A stretch of 22,542 bases of DNA from the IMG/VR virus record IMGVR_UViG_3300015366_000116, positions 1 through 22,542 of that record. One strand, given 5' to 3'. The notes below the pieces were generated by a model. That model saw only the letters and a list, made by a program, of their open reading frames with translations, was not told the DNA's origin and did no database searches. Below, in pieces: positions 5,212-22,542 of the stretch (positions are counted from its first letter, which is position 1; every line of letters starts with the position of its first letter). The translations under genes were made by a program, and so were the position numbers. The DNA is from a virus.

Positions 5212-5382
5212 TTACTTGTTTTTAAATGGTGAATTTGATTTGAAATCGTAACCAAGTTTTTTTAATTCTTGGGTGGAATCTTCCAGGCTCATAGCATTTA
5301 CTTGTTGAACTGTGTAACCAAGTTTTACTAATGCTTTTTGTTGTGATACGGCTAACTTTACTAACCAGTTGCAATCCATCAT
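5212..5382 (-). CDS. 56-aa leader gene of the leftward operon
   Basis: The first gene after the leftward promoter starts with tandem ATGs at 5382/5379 behind AAGGGGAT, a strong site. It reads MMDCNWLVKLAVSQQKALVKLG, then YTVQQVNAMSLEDSTQELKKLGYDF. There are two short helical repeats each ending in KLGY (KALVKLGYTVQQ, QELKKLGYDFKS). No family is recognised. A GTG at 5403 would fall inside the 5' hairpin and is not favoured. Confidence 0.6.
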   Translation of the reverse strand: MMDCNWLVKLAVSQQKALVKLGYTVQQVNAMSLEDSTQELKKLGYDFKSNSPFKNK

Positions 5383-5401
5383 TTTTATCCCCTTGTTTAT
5401 C

Positions 5402-5415
5402 ACCGAACATTCGGT
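5402..5415 (-). promoter_or_regulatory. 5' mRNA hairpin of the leftward operon
   Basis: On the minus strand ACCGAATGTTCGGT begins 7 nt after the -10, that is at the expected transcription start. As RNA it folds into ACCGA-AUGU-UCGGU (5 bp, AUGU loop). The same element with a different stem occurs at 6403 and 9000. Confidence 0.65.
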
Positions 5416-5443
5416 AAAGAGAACTTTACTAAAGAATTCTTTA
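5415..5443. promoter_or_regulatory. tandem operators TAAAG-N4-CTTTA
   Basis: Two inverted repeats lie one base apart: TAAAGAGAACTTTA (5415-5428), covering the -10, and TAAAGAATTCTTTA (5430-5443), filling the -35/-10 spacer. The second extends to a perfect 16-bp palindrome (5429-5444). Their centres are 15 bp apart. Position and symmetry fit a dimeric repressor that blocks RNA polymerase. Confidence 0.6.
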
Positions 5444-5451
5444 GATGTAAA
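5423..5451 (-). promoter_or_regulatory. leftward early promoter
   Basis: On the minus strand -35 TTTACA (5446-5451), 17-bp spacer, -10 TAAAGT (5423-5428). It drives the operon from 5382 leftward. The -35 and spacing are identical to those of the two rightward early promoters. Confidence 0.65.
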
Positions 5452-5753
5452 GAAATTTGTGCAAAAAAAACTATTTATTTTTATTTTGGTTTATTTTTGA
5501 CAATAGGTTCCCCAAGGGTGATAAGCCCACCATCCATTCAAGAACAAGCTTGCAGTCCTGAACTAATGCTTCCGAGGATAATGTTCAATCGTTTAAAGGG
5601 TTGTCTATCACCACTTGCCCTTAAAACTTGTGTAGTGCCCATTTAAGCCTACGTGGCTCATACCGGGTGCAGGTAGGCCAATCTATTCTTTCCAGCCGGC
5701 GATCTAACCGCTTTGCTATCGTGGGAAGTACGGATGAAGAATAGGATCGGCAA
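5452..5753. other. about 300 bp without a gene, possible RNA gene or origin
   Basis: No open frame with a convincing start covers this stretch. It begins with an A/T-rich tract (5462-5497). On the + strand TTGACA (5497-5502) and GATAAG (5520-5525), 17 bp apart, could form a promoter into the region. Inverted repeats include GCCTAC/GTAGGC (5647-5652 and 5673-5678) and CGAT/ATCG around 5700-5721. A 21-codon + frame at 5581 follows GAGGAT but is unlike a protein. A structured RNA or replication origin would both fit the position between operons; neither is shown. Confidence 0.4.
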
Positions 5754-5846
5754 TAAAAAAAGGCTTTAGTGGCAACTCTGTGATTAGACGGCTTAAGAAA
5801 ACGTTCTATTTATTTTCCTAAACCCACAAAATTGCCGCTAAAGCCT
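5754..5846 (-). terminator. long terminator hairpin after the Cro-like gene
   Basis: The 22-nt arms 5761-5782 and 5825-5846 pair with about two mismatches and one wobble (AGGCTTTAG...CTAAAGCCT), enclosing a 42-nt loop. On the minus strand the stem is followed at once by seven T (5761-5755), so it should end leftward transcripts from the Cro-like gene and keep them out of the operon at 5382. Confidence 0.68.
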
Positions 5847-5893
5847 AATATCATCGAGTGTCTAATTCCTCAACAACATAAATATATCATAAT

Positions 5894-6124
5894 TTACGGA
5901 ATAAACAACTCCGGCCAAATTAAATGCCAATTATTTGGAAAAAGCTTTTTTCTGCTTACTTTGCCGTTTGTTTCTTTTTCTATCGTGGCGGCTATCATCA
6001 TTAATGGTGCCGCCGGAATAGCGTTATTGTTGCGCCATTGGCATACAGCCTGAACCGATACGCCGCATATCTTGGCCACTTTTGCTGGCCTACCCAACAA
6101 ATCAATTATTTGTGCATCCGTCAT
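5894..6124 (-). CDS. Cro/YdaS-like helix-turn-helix regulator
   Basis: The 76 residues begin MTDAQIIDLLGRPAKVAKICGVSVQAVCQWRN, a helix-turn-helix (about residues 11-33), then IPAAPLMMIAATIEKETNGKVSRKKL and a C-terminal NWHLIWPEL, typical of Cro/YdaS-type single-domain phage repressors. It should bind palindromic operators as a dimer; the TAAAG-N4-CTTTA sites at the early promoters are the natural candidates (inference). AAGGAT precedes the start, which overlaps the upstream stop as ATGA. No partner CI-like repressor is seen. Confidence 0.82.
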   Translation of the reverse strand: MTDAQIIDLLGRPAKVAKICGVSVQAVCQWRNNNAIPAAPLMMIAATIEKETNGKVSRKKLFPNNWHLIWPELFIP

Positions 6125-6339
6125 TTATTTTCATCCTTAAATGGTTTGTAATTTAACGCACCGTTTTCATAAGTCCATGATGCCCCGCATTGACAATGAA
6201 CGGAATTAAGCAATGATTCAGGCTGCGCTAGTCTGGCTTTAATTGCTTGTATTGTTTCAACTTGTTTTGTTGTTTTGTCCATGTTCCATACGGAAATCAA
6301 CGCATCCAACGCTTGCTGTAATAGTTCACGATCAGTCAT
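6121..6339 (-). CDS. 72-aa phage protein with C-terminal Cys pair
   Basis: MTDRELLQQALDALISVW..........QAIKARLAQPE is the N-terminal pattern of a very common small phage protein of unknown function. The C-terminal part has HCQCGASWTYENGALNYKPF, which could be half of a metal site. It is the first gene of the leftward unit facing the 6367 promoter. Its leader (AAAGATGAAAATAA before ATG) is nearly the same as that of the next gene (AAGGATGAAAATAA), a small duplication. Confidence 0.7.
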   Translation of the reverse strand: MTDRELLQQALDALISVWNMDKTTKQVETIQAIKARLAQPESLLNSVHCQCGASWTYENGALNYKPFKDENK

Positions 6340-6356
6340 TTATTTTCATCTTTTAC

Positions 6357-6370
6357 TAAATATTTCTTTA
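6357..6370. promoter_or_regulatory. operator-like site overlapping the 6367 promoter
   Basis: TAAATATTTCTTTA matches TAAAG-N4-CTTTA at nine of ten arm positions and overlaps the -35 of the rightward promoter (6367-6372). It also lies in the leader of the divergent Cro-like unit. Confidence 0.4.
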
Positions 6371-6395
6371 CATTGGTTCAATCTTACTTTACATT
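6367..6395 (+). promoter_or_regulatory. first rightward early promoter
   Basis: -35 TTTACA (6367-6372), 17-bp spacer, -10 TACATT (6390-6395), then 7 nt to the 5' hairpin at 6403. It drives the operon starting at 6438. Confidence 0.62.
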
Positions 6396-6409
6396 CTTAA
6401 TTACGGCAA
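6381..6409 (-). promoter_or_regulatory. possible divergent promoter for the Cro-like unit
   Basis: On the minus strand TTGCCG (6404-6409) and TAAGAT (6381-6386), each 4/6 to consensus, are 17 bp apart. Its -35 falls inside the hairpin repeat of the opposite transcript, so the two promoters would interfere. The match is weak. Confidence 0.33.
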
Positions 6410-6418
6410 TGTTGCCGT
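6403..6418 (+). promoter_or_regulatory. 5' mRNA hairpin of the first rightward operon
   Basis: ACGGCAATGTTGCCGT begins 7 nt after the -10. As RNA it gives ACGGCA-AUGU-UGCCGU, a 6-bp stem with the same AUGU loop as at 5402 and 9000 but other stem bases. Confidence 0.65.
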
Positions 6419-6437
6419 GAGTAACAAAGGAAAAAAA

Positions 6438-6695
6438 ATGGAATTCAAATACGATATGGAACAAGACTATTTAGACCAATACAATGACCAGGTTCAAACC
6501 GAATTTCGGCTTGAAGAAATATTTGGCGCATTGGAACGTGCAGAGCCGTTGGATGATGAAGAAATAGCGTTACTTCGCCACTCTTGCGGTATGCCAAAAA
6601 AATCATTAACTCAAATTAAAGCAGAAGCGCAAAAACGGCTTTTGCGTGACATTTTTATTGATGCAACAAATAACTTAATTAAGGAAAAAAAATGA
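6438..6695 (+). CDS. 85-aa acidic early protein
   Basis: The first gene after the rightward promoter starts at ATG 6438 with AAAGG 7 nt upstream; a GTG at 6417 falls within the hairpin and is rejected. It reads MEFKYDMEQDYLDQYNDQVQ, FRLEEIFGALERAEPLDDEEIALLRHSCGMP, and a basic C-terminal half (KSLTQIKAEAQKRLLRDIF). The acidic N-terminus with basic helical end suggests a small adaptor or regulator, but no family is recognised. It overlaps the SSB-like gene as ATGA. Confidence 0.68.
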   Translation: MEFKYDMEQDYLDQYNDQVQTEFRLEEIFGALERAEPLDDEEIALLRHSCGMPKKSLTQIKAEAQKRLLRDIFIDATNNLIKEKK

Positions 6696-7333
6696 TCGTA
6701 GCCCGTCAAAACAGTACAAATAGCGATTTTAAATTACCACCAGCAGGTAGCTTTAGCGCACGTTTATATCGTTTAATCGATATTGGCACCCAAACCACCG
6801 AATGGATGGGTAAGAAAAAAATGCAGCGCAAAATCATTGCAATGTTTGAATTGCATGGTGAAGATAATGATGGCCAGCCATTGTTAACCAATGACGGTAA
6901 GCCATTAGTTGTGTCCAAACGCTATACATTGTCTTTAGATGAAAAGGCTACATTGCGTAAAGATTTGGAAGCTTGGCGTGGCCGTGCGTTTACCCAAGAA
7001 GAACTAGATGGTTTTAACCTAGAAGTGTTGCTAGGCAAATTTTGCATGGTATCCATTACGCATACAGAACATGATGGCAAACAATACGCCAACATTTCTA
7101 GCATTAGCCAAGTACCTTCTGCGCTTAAAAAATTAGGCGAACCAAAAGGTATTAACGAACTGATGATTTTTACGCTAGACCAATTTGATCAAGGTAAGTT
7201 TGAAAAGCTTTCAGAAGGCTTACAAGGCGTAATCAGAAAATCCGCTGAATACCGCAACATTTTTGAACCTAATTCACCACCTGTTTCTTCCTCACCAATG
7301 GAAGAAATGGATGATGATATACCTTTTAATTAG
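6692..7333 (+). CDS. single-stranded-DNA-binding-like protein
   Basis: The 213 residues match a phage family with PPAGSFSARLYRLIDIGTQTTEWMGKKKMQRKI near the N-terminus and VSKRYTLSLDEKATLRKDLEAWRGRAFTQEEL in the middle (about residues 74-105). The beta-rich N-terminal part is compatible with an OB fold. The last residues, MEEMDDDIPFN, repeat the acidic DDDIPF tip of bacterial SSB, which recruits partner enzymes. It would coat single-stranded DNA in replication or recombination together with the RecB-like nuclease downstream. The family is recognised; the binding activity is inferred from the tip and context. Confidence 0.7.
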   Translation: MIVARQNSTNSDFKLPPAGSFSARLYRLIDIGTQTTEWMGKKKMQRKIIAMFELHGEDNDGQPLLTNDGKPLVVSKRYTLSLDEKATLRKDLEAWRGRAFTQEELDGFNLEVLLGKFCMVSITHTEHDGKQYANISSISQVPSALKKLGEPKGINELMIFTLDQFDQGKFEKLSEGLQGVIRKSAEYRNIFEPNSPPVSSSPMEEMDDDIPFN

Positions 7334-7376
7334 AATGGGTCTATAATGGTTGTATTTCTAGGCAAGGATATACAAC

Positions 7377-7802
7377 ATGATTCATTCCAAAAAATGCTTT
7401 AAATGCCATACCGTTACGCCATTAACTGAATTTTATAAACACGCAGCAATGGCTGACGGTTATTTAAATAAATGCAAAAAATGTACTAAAAAAGATGCTT
7501 TGGAACATCGCATCAAAAACATAGAACGAATTAGGGAATACGACAGAATTAGAAGTAAAAATTCTGAACGCATGAAAATTGCTAGTGAAATTTCTAAAGC
7601 GTGGTATCAAGCAGATAAACGTAGATTGCAATGCCATAACGCAGTTACTCGTGCCGTTAAAAAAGGAACTTTAATTCGTTTGCCTTGTATTAGATGTGGT
7701 TCTAAAAAAAGTCTGGCGCATCATGAAAATTATGATGAACCTTTAAATGTTATGTGGCTATGTCAGCCATGCCACAAACAAAGACATAAGGAAATTAAAT
7801 GA
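7377..7802 (+). CDS. HNH endonuclease with zinc knuckle
   Basis: The 141 residues begin KKCFKCHTVTPLTEFYKH...GYLNKCKKC, two CxxC pairs forming a zinc knuckle (residues 7-36). The C-terminus has PCIRCGSKKSLAHHENYDEPLNVMWLCQPCHKQRHKEI, an HNH centre with its own Cys pairs (CIRC, CQPC) and the HH of the beta-beta-alpha-metal motif. It resembles free-standing phage HNH nucleases that nick DNA, some of them homing. AAGGATATACAAC precedes the ATG. A TATAAT at 7342-7347 without a clear -35 could add a local promoter. The ATGA overlap links it to the next gene. Confidence 0.82.
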   Translation: MIHSKKCFKCHTVTPLTEFYKHAAMADGYLNKCKKCTKKDALEHRIKNIERIREYDRIRSKNSERMKIASEISKAWYQADKRRLQCHNAVTRAVKKGTLIRLPCIRCGSKKSLAHHENYDEPLNVMWLCQPCHKQRHKEIK

Positions 7803-7993
7803 AATGTATTGAATGTAAATGGTTTGCTGGTACCGCTAACGATCAATATGGGGTTTGCAAACGCTACCCCATAGTCCAAAACAAAACGCAGCATGATTGG
7901 TGCGGTGAATATGTATCTAAGATATGTGAAATATCGGAAGCAGTTGCAGAACTCCAAGCAAAACGTGGAAGGAAGCCAAAAAATGATAATTAA
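7799..7993 (+). CDS. 64-aa four-cysteine small protein
   Basis: It begins MKCIECKWFAGTANDQYGVCKRYP, with DWCGEYV following. Cys3, Cys6, Cys20 and Cys35 form a four-Cys set typical of small zinc-ribbon or iron-sulphur-type proteins, a common phage family without known function. A basic end (AKRGRKPKNDN) resembles an AT-hook-like RGRKP, so DNA binding is plausible. It overlaps the HNH gene by 4 nt and the nuclease gene by 11 nt. Confidence 0.7.
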   Translation: MKCIECKWFAGTANDQYGVCKRYPIVQNKTQHDWCGEYVSKICEISEAVAELQAKRGRKPKNDN

Positions 7994-8771
7994 AGAACGT
8001 CAATCTGAATCTGGCCATTGGTACGGGCGTGATGGTAGCCCAGCCTATACAGTAATTGGTAAAAATGGCCAACCCCGCAATACAACGCTACGTGATGCCC
8101 GATCCCATGATTTGGTGCCTAGTGTTTCCGGTATCTTGAACGTGGCCGCCAAGCCAGGTTTGGATACTTGGAAGCAGCAGCAAGTATTGTTGGCTGCGTT
8201 AACCCTGCCCCGCCAAGAAAGTGAATCTGAAGAAAACTGGCTAGAACGGGTAATGATGGATTCTAAACAAACTGGCCGTGTAGCTGCTGAACGTGGAACT
8301 GCTATTCACGCAATTATTCAAGAATACTTTGAGGGTAAAGTAGTGCCTGAATATGCAGCTATGTGTGAACCGGTCAGGGAAGCCGTAGAAGCGCATTTTG
8401 GGAAGCTTTTGTACGTGCCTGAAGTATCCTTTGCCCATCCGCTTGGATACGGCGGTAAAGCCGATTTAATAGCCCAAGCTTCGCTTAATTTTGATGGCGT
8501 TTGCATTGACTTCAAAACCAAAGAAACAGAAGATATTTCTACGGCTGATGTTTATGCGGAACATGGTATGCAGTTGGCCGCATATCGTGAAGGCTTCAAA
8601 ATGCCAAAGGCTAGATGTGCCAATGTGTTTGTTGGCTACAAAATGGTTGGCGGCAACGTAGTGTTTACTGGCGTTAAATTGATTGAACATGATCCAATTA
8701 ACTTAGATCGTTATTGGCTGATGTTTACAAAATTGCTAGAGTTTTGGCAATTGAAGAACAATCATTCTTGA
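7983..8771 (+). CDS. PD-(D/E)XK nuclease, RecB/Cas4-like
   Basis: The 262 residues run from the ATG at 7983, which has GGAAGGAAGCC upstream; the frame to 7893 would overlap the previous gene by 100 nt. Motifs in order: RGTAIH (104-109), EVSFAHPLGYGGKADLI (147-163, Asp161), CIDFKTKE (174-181, Asp176/Lys178) and GMQLAAY (195-201). This is the RecB-type exonuclease order (H, D, DxK, QxxxY). It probably resects or trims DNA ends for phage recombination with the SSB-like protein. No CRISPR genes are near, so a Cas4 role is unlikely. Confidence 0.85.
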   Translation: MIIKERQSESGHWYGRDGSPAYTVIGKNGQPRNTTLRDARSHDLVPSVSGILNVAAKPGLDTWKQQQVLLAALTLPRQESESEENWLERVMMDSKQTGRVAAERGTAIHAIIQEYFEGKVVPEYAAMCEPVREAVEAHFGKLLYVPEVSFAHPLGYGGKADLIAQASLNFDGVCIDFKTKETEDISTADVYAEHGMQLAAYREGFKMPKARCANVFVGYKMVGGNVVFTGVKLIEHDPINLDRYWLMFTKLLEFWQLKNNHS

Positions 8772-8808
8772 TTCACGGGAAAAAGCGGATGCTATACCTG
8801 GATGGCGT

Positions 8809-8940
8809 ATGCCGGCCTTTCTTACCAGCGGCATTTATGATAGTGAAGCGAGTATCCCACCATTTTATAAAGCCGTTAACTGGACAGTAGAGGATGCAAC
8901 AATTTGGGAATTTTTCCAGTTTCTGCCCAATTTGCAATAG
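8809..8940 (+). CDS. doubtful 43-codon frame after the nuclease gene
   Basis: A frame open from 8764 reads ILDSREKADAIPGWRMP, AFLTSGIYDSEASIPPFYK, WTVEDATIWEFFQFLPNLQ, a protein-like composition. The only ATG (8809) has a poor ribosome site, so the upstream 15 codons would need ATT or another rare start, or a frame change from the nuclease gene. A competing 33-codon frame starts at ATG 8789. It could be a decayed gene. Confidence 0.28.
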   Translation: MPAFLTSGIYDSEASIPPFYKAVNWTVEDATIWEFFQFLPNLQ

Positions 8941-8960
8941 TTGCCAAATTTAGGCTTTTT
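8929..8960 (+). terminator. weak terminator before the second rightward promoter
   Basis: AATTTGCAA (8929-8937) pairs with TTGCCAAATT (8941-8950) with one bulged C and a 3-nt loop; five T follow at 8956-8960. The stem is A/T-rich. It stands between the nuclease operon and the promoter at 8965. Confidence 0.42.
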
Positions 8961-8964
8961 CTTA

Positions 8965-8993
8965 TTTACACGTAAAGCAATCTTTAGTATATT
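8965..8993 (+). promoter_or_regulatory. second rightward early promoter with operator
   Basis: -35 TTTACA (8965-8970), 17-bp spacer, -10 TATATT (8988-8993, 5/6). The spacer holds TAAAGCAATCTTTA (8973-8986), a TAAAG-N4-CTTTA operator in the same place as at the leftward promoter. It drives the genes from 9036 to 9834. Confidence 0.68.
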
Positions 8994-8999
8994 AACTCT

Positions 9000-9015
9000 A
9001 CCGCAATGTTGCGGT
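9000..9015 (+). promoter_or_regulatory. 5' mRNA hairpin of the second rightward operon
   Basis: ACCGCAATGTTGCGGT starts 6 nt after the -10. As RNA: ACCGCA-AUGU-UGCGGU, 6 bp with the conserved AUGU loop. It is followed by GATAAATAAAGGAATAAAAA and the first ATG, a leader nearly the same as that of the leftward operon. Confidence 0.66.
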
Positions 9016-9035: not shown

Positions 9036-9425
9036 ATGAACCGTAAACAAAAATCACAAGCAGTTTGGACACATGAATTAGACAATACCAAAACGTTTGC
9101 AGAACAAGCAAATCATGACAAAATTGATTATAAATATGTAGCCAATGAAGCTTTAACCGGCATTATATTTGTGGCTGCTGTACTTGCTGCATTATTCTTA
9201 ACTGGCTGTTCAACGCCTGGCACCGTTTATAGCCAAGCACCTACCCAACAATTAGTATTGGATAAACAAGTTGCCGGCTTATCAAGAAATGAAATTATTA
9301 ACGGCGTTACTGAATGTGAGGGTGCAGGATTACGTGCCCATGTAATTACTACTAAACGATCAATTAATGGCTTTAGTGCTGATATACCAATTGAAGTAAC
9401 TTGTATGCCTAAGTACCGATATTAG
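9036..9425 (+). CDS. membrane-anchored or lipoprotein-like protein with internal LTGC
   Basis: The 129 residues have a hydrophilic 40-residue N-terminus, a hydrophobic segment (GIIFVAAVLAALFLTG, about 42-57) ending in LTGC, then STPGTVYSQAPTQQ and a soluble part with two Cys (ECEGAGL, VTCMP). LTGC looks like a lipobox, but the preceding 40 residues are far too long for a lipoprotein signal and there is no internal ATG. It is either a type II membrane protein or a fusion of a leader to an old lipoprotein. AAAGG precedes the ATG. Confidence 0.66.
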   Translation: MNRKQKSQAVWTHELDNTKTFAEQANHDKIDYKYVANEALTGIIFVAAVLAALFLTGCSTPGTVYSQAPTQQLVLDKQVAGLSRNEIINGVTECEGAGLRAHVITTKRSINGFSADIPIEVTCMPKYRY

Positions 9426-21508: not shown

Positions 21509-22493
21509 TGGGTAAAGCCCCCTGTAAGAATCCAGCCAGCATCTTTGGCTTTACTCATTAATAACGCATCCTGATAACGTGAAACACGCATTGGTGCCAT
21601 ATTGGTACTTTTTAACGTAGCTTTAGCTTGGGCTGCAAATGCGCCAATTTGGGCTACTAATACTGGATTAGTTTTGCCATACATGGGCATTAATCGTTCT
21701 GCTAAACACCAGCGCAATGCCAAAGTATAACCTTGCGGTAACGTGGCATCATCATAAAGTGAATCGTAATTTCTAAATAAAGTTTCAGCAAACATATGTA
21801 CTTCACCCTGACTTGGGTTAGGCCATAAAAATACGTTGCCGGAATCTTCATTTGCATTGAAATATAATGCTTTTGGCCACGGCCCATTTAGCGTTTTAAG
21901 GCCAATAGAATTGTAGTTATCCAATGCCAAAACAGCTACTGGATAATCAATCCCGCCATTCAATACAGGCGTTCCGCTTTGGCTTGTAGCAATACGAACA
22001 TAAGCAGAATTGATATTTAATGGCTTAGAGTAATAAGCTTGTATTGCCGTTGATGCAACGCCATTTGGATAGCTGACATTAAGTAAATACGTACCAACTT
22101 CGTTAACGTTACCACCAGCACCAGTTATTGTAGAAACAATCTTTGTGCCTTCATTAATTCCAGTGCCAGTAAGGTATTGGCCAACAACCACGGCACCAGC
22201 CTCAATAGAAGTAACAGTTAAAATCTTGCCTTGAATTGACCCAGTAAAGTTTGCACCAATAAAATTTGGCGTAGTGTGGTTTGGTCCTATCGTATATTGA
22301 ACTTGGCCTGGTATAACATTCCAAATAATTTCTTGGATGTTAAAAACCATCATGTTTTCATTAGACCATTGGTCAACAAGCAGATTTAACATTACCAACG
22401 CATCTTGCGCTGCATCATTTGATGGCACTTCACCAGCTTCTAATGCGCCAATATCCTTCAATGCGCCACTAATAATATCGAACGGTGTTGGCA
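21505..22493 (-). CDS. tail accessory factor, P22 gp4-like, start at contig edge
   Basis: About 329 residues are visible: PTPFDIISGALKDIGALEAGE, AAQDALVMLNLLVDQWSNENMMVF, then ALRWCLAERLMPMYGK and AFAAQAKATLKSTN are the helical pattern of the gp4 family, which bridges the portal and the gp10 hub. A beta module (about 82-152, TGSIQGKILTVTSIEAG...GTYLLNVS) like those of the gp10-like protein is inserted. The first codon reads ?TG because its first base is replaced by adapter; it may be the true ATG. The apparent GTG start is an artefact. Confidence 0.85.
22039..22251 (-). repeat. beta module shared with the gp10-like gene
   Basis: Residues 82-152 of the gp4-like protein (NFTGSIQGKILTV, GQYLTGTGINEGTKIV, VGTYLLNVS) align by eye with both copies in the gp10-like protein (GSISGTTLTV, GQTVQGTGITAGTII, TGTYVVSTS). 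Confidence 0.65.
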
Positions 22494-22542
22494 CTGTCTC
22501 TTATACACATCTCCGAGCCCACGAGACGCTACGCTATCTCGT
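22494..22542 (+). other. Illumina Nextera adapter contamination
   Basis: CTGTCTCTTATACACATCT (22494-22512) is the Tn5 mosaic end. CCGAGCCCACGAGAC (22513-22527) is the read-2 adapter, GCTACGCT (22528-22535) an index that I recall as N709, and ATCTCGT (22536-22542) the start of the P7 flow-cell sequence. These 49 bases are library DNA and should be trimmed. Confidence 0.97.

Follow-up and report, generated by a model that had tools for sequence, protein, structure and literature searches.

A compensated hairpin at the predicted 5' end of early transcripts in a group of phages

Introduction

Why should three promoters of one phage each be followed, at nearly the same distance, by a small inverted repeat whose arms differ from copy to copy? 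The question is raised by the window, by which we mean the whole stretch of DNA analysed, a virus record of 22.5 kb (22,542 nucleotides). The original prediction was that these repeats are selected as RNA structures at mRNA 5' ends rather than only as DNA operators, and that they could stabilise the mRNA, bind an RNA-binding protein or act on the polymerase as put sites do.

The window contains genes for lysozyme and Hc3 head closure, as well as RusA-like, GroES-like, RecA-dependent nuclease, exonuclease and ssDNA-binding-like genes. Together with the P22-like portal and coat of the annotated relatives MW202674 and MW202520, this content places the phage among freshwater podophages of the P22-like kind. 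The last positions of the window (22493-22542) are Nextera-type adapter sequence (CTGTCTCTTATACACATCT...) with an index, which is why they match the ends of unrelated phage records. A GTDB scan for a host via prophages gave distant matches only (35-40% identity), and no member of the integrase family was found in 8 records.

Results

Three early promoters with one layout

The three promoters share the layout TTTACA-N17-(-10)-N6/7-hairpin-SD-ATG, and each was present with the position, -35 element, spacing and hairpin that had been predicted. On the minus strand, P_L has its -35 TTTACA at 5446-5451, its -10 TAAAGT at 5423-5428 and, after a gap of 7 nt, the 5'-terminal hairpin ACCGA-AUGU-UCGGU at 5402-5415, with the predicted +1 at 5415. 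On the plus strand, P_R1 has its -35 TTTACA at 6367-6372, its -10 TACATT at 6390-6395 and, again after 7 nt, the hairpin ACGGCA-AUGU-UGCCGU at 6403-6418 (predicted +1 at 6403), and P_R2 has its -35 TTTACA at 8965-8970, its -10 TATATT at 8988-8993 and, after 6 nt, the hairpin ACCGCA-AUGU-UGCGGU at 9000-9015 (predicted +1 at 9000). A short A-rich leader, the Shine-Dalgarno sequence (SD) and the ATG follow each hairpin. Counted through the ATG, the leaders are 36-39 nt long, and on folding the one hairpin of 14-16 nt is the sole structure in each, with energies of -5.4, -8.5 and -8.5 kcal/mol for P_L, P_R1 and P_R2.

The P_L operon begins with a predicted ORF of 56 aa (5212-5382, minus strand). 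The P_R1 operon, on the plus strand, starts with an 85-aa gene (6438-6695), followed by an ssDNA-binding-like gene (6692-7333), an endonuclease gene (7377-7802) and a PD-(D/E)XK exonuclease gene (7983-8771). The first gene after P_R2 (9036-9425, plus strand) encodes 129 aa, with a lipobox-like LTGC motif and a hydrophobic segment; relatives differ in this gene. It is this gene content that leads us to regard the three operons as early. Divergent from P_R1 lies a gene for a YdaS/P22 Cro-like regulator (5894-6124, minus strand).

An operator of the form CTAAAG-N4-CTTTAG lies in or adjoins all three promoters. The P_L spacer holds a perfect palindrome, CTAAAGAATTCTTTAG (5429-5444, minus strand), a probable repressor operator of a class that recurs in relatives; the operator-like CTAAATATTTCTTTAC (6356-6371), also repeated in relatives, overlaps the P_R1 -35 between the divergent promoters; and the P_R2 spacer contains the imperfect operator palindrome GTAAAGCAATCTTTAG (8972-8987).

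The hairpin recurs in three lineages

Relatives were gathered by scanning viral contigs with the ssDNA-binding-like protein and the exonuclease as queries and by pattern scans. This recovered more than 250 loci in three lineages; as loci overlap and some contigs recur, counts were made on unique sequences. Lineage A is that of the window, the exonuclease of lineage B is 57-59% identical, and lineage C comprises MW202674 (exonuclease 47% identical), MW202520 and 25 contigs. The hairpin stands at the same place after early promoters in all three lineages, homologues of the P_L site included, and nearly all operator-bearing early promoters carry it.

Selection bias was countered by picking promoters on DNA features alone, with no hairpin required. 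With the -35, -10, SD and ORF as sole criteria, 172 of 224 unique sites reach a hairpin score of at least 12, against 3 after shuffling, so the hairpin occurs at promoters beyond chance; the real promoters below this score mostly have the weaker ACTC...GAGT hairpin of lineage B. When sites were picked by the operator or the P_R1 promoter sequence, every one of the five outer pairs was intact in 119 of the 120 belonging to the 16-nt class; sites of 14 and 15 nt behaved alike except for 32 four-pair stems in lineage B. The P_R2 orthologue has the hairpin in every one of 110 unique phages. Lineage C gave 25 scoring sites among 37 operator promoters, where 0.25 were expected; five of the 12 non-scorers have a hairpin 1-2 bases further on (CTGGC/GCCAG type), and the others belong mainly to the divergent regulator gene.

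Five whole records of ~35 kb showed three clear sites apiece, none of them outside the early/regulatory region. The remaining matches of the scan in these records, which might have been hairpins at late genes, look like scattered background and were rejected. We found no comparable site in MW202573 and MW202426, the nearest phages by SSB-like protein, and no comparable early hairpin in Rhodoferax phage P26218.

The hairpin is independent of the repressor operator: the latter changes from CTAAAG-N4-CTTTAG in lineage A to GTTAAG...CTTAAC in lineage B and TTTAGATAGCTTAA in lineage C, whereas the hairpin persists in all. This variation of the operator suggests that repressor specificities may be particular to each lineage.

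The hairpin keeps its distance from the -10 element

The hairpin is anchored to the -10 element, and more tightly so than to the SD. It starts 6 nt (132 sites) or 7 nt (75 sites) after the -10 (n = 207), a spacing with a standard deviation of 0.48 nt, compared with 1.50 nt for the distance from hairpin to SD, which is 5-9 nt in nearly all sites. Because a hairpin beginning 6-7 nt after the -10 begins where +1 is expected, transcription would start at its base, leaving no unpaired 5' nucleotides. In lineages A and B a T almost invariably precedes the hairpin, whose own first base is A, and this fits a pyrimidine-purine start. Of 160 predicted folds, 159 have +1 paired and 138 leave the SD open. 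The divergent regulator, which is YdaS/P22 Cro-like in lineage A and represented by other small helix-turn-helix-like proteins in B and C, provided the negative control: its leaders lack the hairpin, and those of lineage A average -0.1 kcal/mol (20 leaders). Regulator leaders are very short in B and C, and the contrast is cleanest in A.

Stems change in pairs, with wobble on the sense strand

Selection acts on the conserved hairpin as folded RNA at the 5' end of the mRNA, a conclusion that we hold with high confidence and that bears out the original prediction. A number of observations carry it. First, in an alignment of 65 distinct 16-nt sites, 98.5% of cells are paired and covariation is 0.446, against 0.160 in shuffles (0/500) that preserve column make-up but not relatedness, so that no exact probability is claimed; the signal collapses once the register is slid. 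The 39 distinct 14-nt sites give 0.560 against 0.115, and RNAalifold recovers the same helix unaided. Second, when the P_R2 orthologue is placed on a tree of another gene, the exonuclease, the fewest changes at pairs 3, 4 and 5 are 4, 6 and 10, a total of about 20 stem-pair changes, most of which keep pairing, although recombination could inflate these counts. Third, uncompensated change, which would speak against a selected RNA, is nearly absent: pairs 1-4 of 68 distinct hairpins (lineage C stems entered by hand) comprise 259 Watson-Crick cells, 13 G.U, 0 A.C and 0 other mismatches. Single-sided changes are thus sense-strand G.U only, which points to RNA, since a DNA palindrome would not prefer wobble on the sense strand. 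Fourth, lineage C has unrelated stems at the same place (ATGGC/GCCAT, GTAGCA/TGCTAC, CTGGC/GCCAG, CTGAC/GTCAG) and preserves a full path from CTGGC/GCCAG through the G.U intermediate CTGGC/GTCAG to CTGAC/GTCAG. The compensated pairs were counted in aligned promoter sites, a 16-nt hairpin holding too little information for covariance-model searches of collections.

The loop behaves otherwise. It is ATGT in all three window copies, and its constancy had been taken as part of the signature, which turns out to be local to the window: relatives have ATGG, ACGG, ATAG, AAGT, ACGT, ATTGG, AATAAC and other loops, varying in sequence and length with a first base that is mostly A. An AC...GUG(A) frame is nearly invariant in lineages A and B and absent from lineage C, and we therefore rejected AC...GUGA as a universal motif. 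Some lineage B P_R1 leaders (13 loci) have a second hairpin, ACCC-loop-GGGTGA, directly downstream of the first, which at L263 and L275 is an evident tandem duplication. Weak hairpins also occur at P_L in part of lineage B (ACTC-6 nt-GAGT, -2.3 kcal/mol).

Discussion

What could such a hairpin do? Among the functions first proposed, stabilisation of the mRNA fits best, because the stem lies at the predicted +1, is free in sequence, stands on early operons and is absent from the regulator. Each early promoter of this P22-like podophage group would produce an mRNA whose first nucleotide opens a hairpin of 4-7 bp, with a short unstructured leader and the Shine-Dalgarno sequence directly 3' of it. 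RppH and RNase E both need a 5' end that is single-stranded, and mRNA is stabilised by secondary structure at that end (reviewed in PMC3997798). A blunt 5' stem may thus be poorly attacked by RppH and poorly recognised by the 5' sensor of RNase E; decay that depends on the 5' end would be blocked, early messages would last longer and the divergent regulator mRNA, lacking the hairpin, would keep its ordinary turnover. We give this full explanation a probability of roughly 0.55. The stabilising mechanism taken by itself is an even bet, and the knowledge of RppH and RNase E behind it comes from E. coli. A number of observations count against it: 1) the near-invariant AC...GUG(A) frame in two lineages is superfluous for a generic cap; 2) the second internal hairpin (ACCC...GGGT) in part of lineage B is not needed by a structure acting at the 5' end; and 3) the P_L hairpins of lineage B can be weak.

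As the frame and the tandem hairpin are left unexplained by a cap, there is room for a protein. An RNA-binding protein of the phage or of the host might bind the hairpin and control all early operons jointly, at the level of translation or of stability, a reading we consider rather unlikely. The frame shared by lineages A and B, the preference for A as first loop base and the tandem copies in some phages would all suit a recognised site, but the inner stem, loop sequence and loop length vary, lineage C keeps neither frame nor loop, and a candidate binder was not identified. A broader picture, which we put forward tentatively, is that of a structural "RNA cap": the phage group would mark every early transcript, and not the regulator's, with a blunt +1 hairpin, setting early mRNAs apart from those of the host, either in their decay or as targets of a dedicated binding protein; a single element would then coordinate stability across all early operons.

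Less probable still is that the hairpin acts on translation rather than on decay, as an insulator that keeps the leader open and places the ribosome site. The narrow range of hairpin-to-SD distances and the prevalence of unpaired SDs are compatible with this role, but the tighter anchoring is to the -10, and the regulator's leader shows that an A-rich sequence can stay open with no hairpin at all.

The put-like role of the original prediction, in which the nascent RNA would make RNA polymerase resist pausing or termination, looks improbable in the window. It finds some encouragement in the location at early promoters, as for HK022 putL, and in the two tandem hairpins of some relatives. The HK022 put RNA has two stem-loops in ~70 nt (PMC9378689), whereas the window leaders hold one short hairpin, nothing else in them folds and there is no room for a second stem; the tandem hairpins of relatives are short. 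Moreover, terminator-like sites in the early region are no commoner than in shuffles. In both systems a structured RNA stands at the beginning, here the predicted beginning, of early phage messages; the put fold is specific and bound to RNA polymerase, where it contacts the zinc-binding domain of beta', unlike the single hairpin of variable sequence described here.

A reading of the inverted repeat as the DNA operator of some transcription regulator is very hard to sustain. Its position at a promoter and the ATGT centre common to the three window copies would be expected of an operator, but the bases on which protein recognition would depend vary as complementary pairs, the window half-sites (ACCGA, ACGGCA, ACCGCA) differ where a repressor operator would conserve them, single-sided changes show the sense-strand bias described above, the evident operator is a separate palindrome, and the divergent promoter lies under operator-like sites without having a hairpin. 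An N4 virion RNA polymerase-type DNA hairpin promoter, suggested by a stem and loop of similar size, and a leaderless mini-ORF from the loop (AUG UUG CCG UGA), suggested by the AUG in all window copies, were rejected as the least probable readings, since the hairpin follows a sigma-70-like -10 instead of preceding the start, the wobble is on the sense and not the template strand, and many relatives no longer have the AUG (loops such as ACGG, ATAG and AAGT). An N4-type promoter would also call for an N4-type polymerase gene; the largest open reading frame of the window, itself a fragment, encodes 893 aa.

How do the phage hairpins compare with known elements? Lambda nut boxB is also a short hairpin in phage early leaders, but it lies downstream of boxA and N recognises its specific loop, whereas the hairpin here is at the predicted +1 and its loop varies. 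N4 virion RNA polymerase promoters, small hairpins near a phage early start site, are template-strand DNA hairpins upstream of the start, unlike a hairpin that covaries in the sense strand. Closest are the 5'-terminal stabilising stem-loops of E. coli ompA and papA, as the review PMC3997798 presents them (Emory 1992, Bouvet and Belasco 1992, and Bricker and Belasco 1999, cited therein), which have a paired stem at the 5' end of the mRNA, or a few nucleotides from it, with an unstructured ribosome site behind, an arrangement predicted for the phage hairpins too. The phage case differs in that one small hairpin stands at every early promoter of a phage group, is maintained through compensatory changes from lineage to lineage and begins at the predicted +1. 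We rate the phage hairpins as a variant of known 5'-terminal stem-loops that is apparently unreported at phage early promoters; our search covered mainly the open-access literature, where no report of such elements was found.

Protection of bacterial mRNA by a 5' stem was previously known from isolated examples. Natural mutants and rescues at one promoter in more than 100 phages make the rule, a stem at +1 of free sequence, testable. If it is true, phages would have a simple route to shield early messages from host decay, apart from promoter strength and repression, and the hairpins would be a source of portable natural 5' stabilisers.

Other structured RNAs were sought in the window. Rfam at curated score gave no match in it, and a permissive search of 5300-6460 gave chance-level matches only. 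A sub-threshold match to the Polynucleobacter-1 RNA at 6095-6233 on the minus strand (15.9 of 37 bits, E 0.83) overlaps coding sequence and is probably due to chance. Most of the noncoding stretch 5480-5890, between the regulator gene and P_L, is conserved in lineages A and B (71-83%), and the minus strand of this stretch is strongly folded (-125.9 kcal/mol, z -4.7, compared with z -1.5 for the plus strand). The stretch includes an arm resembling a terminator (AGGCTTTAG...CTAAAGCCTTTTTTT) as well as another structured part, and is a possible novel RNA candidate.
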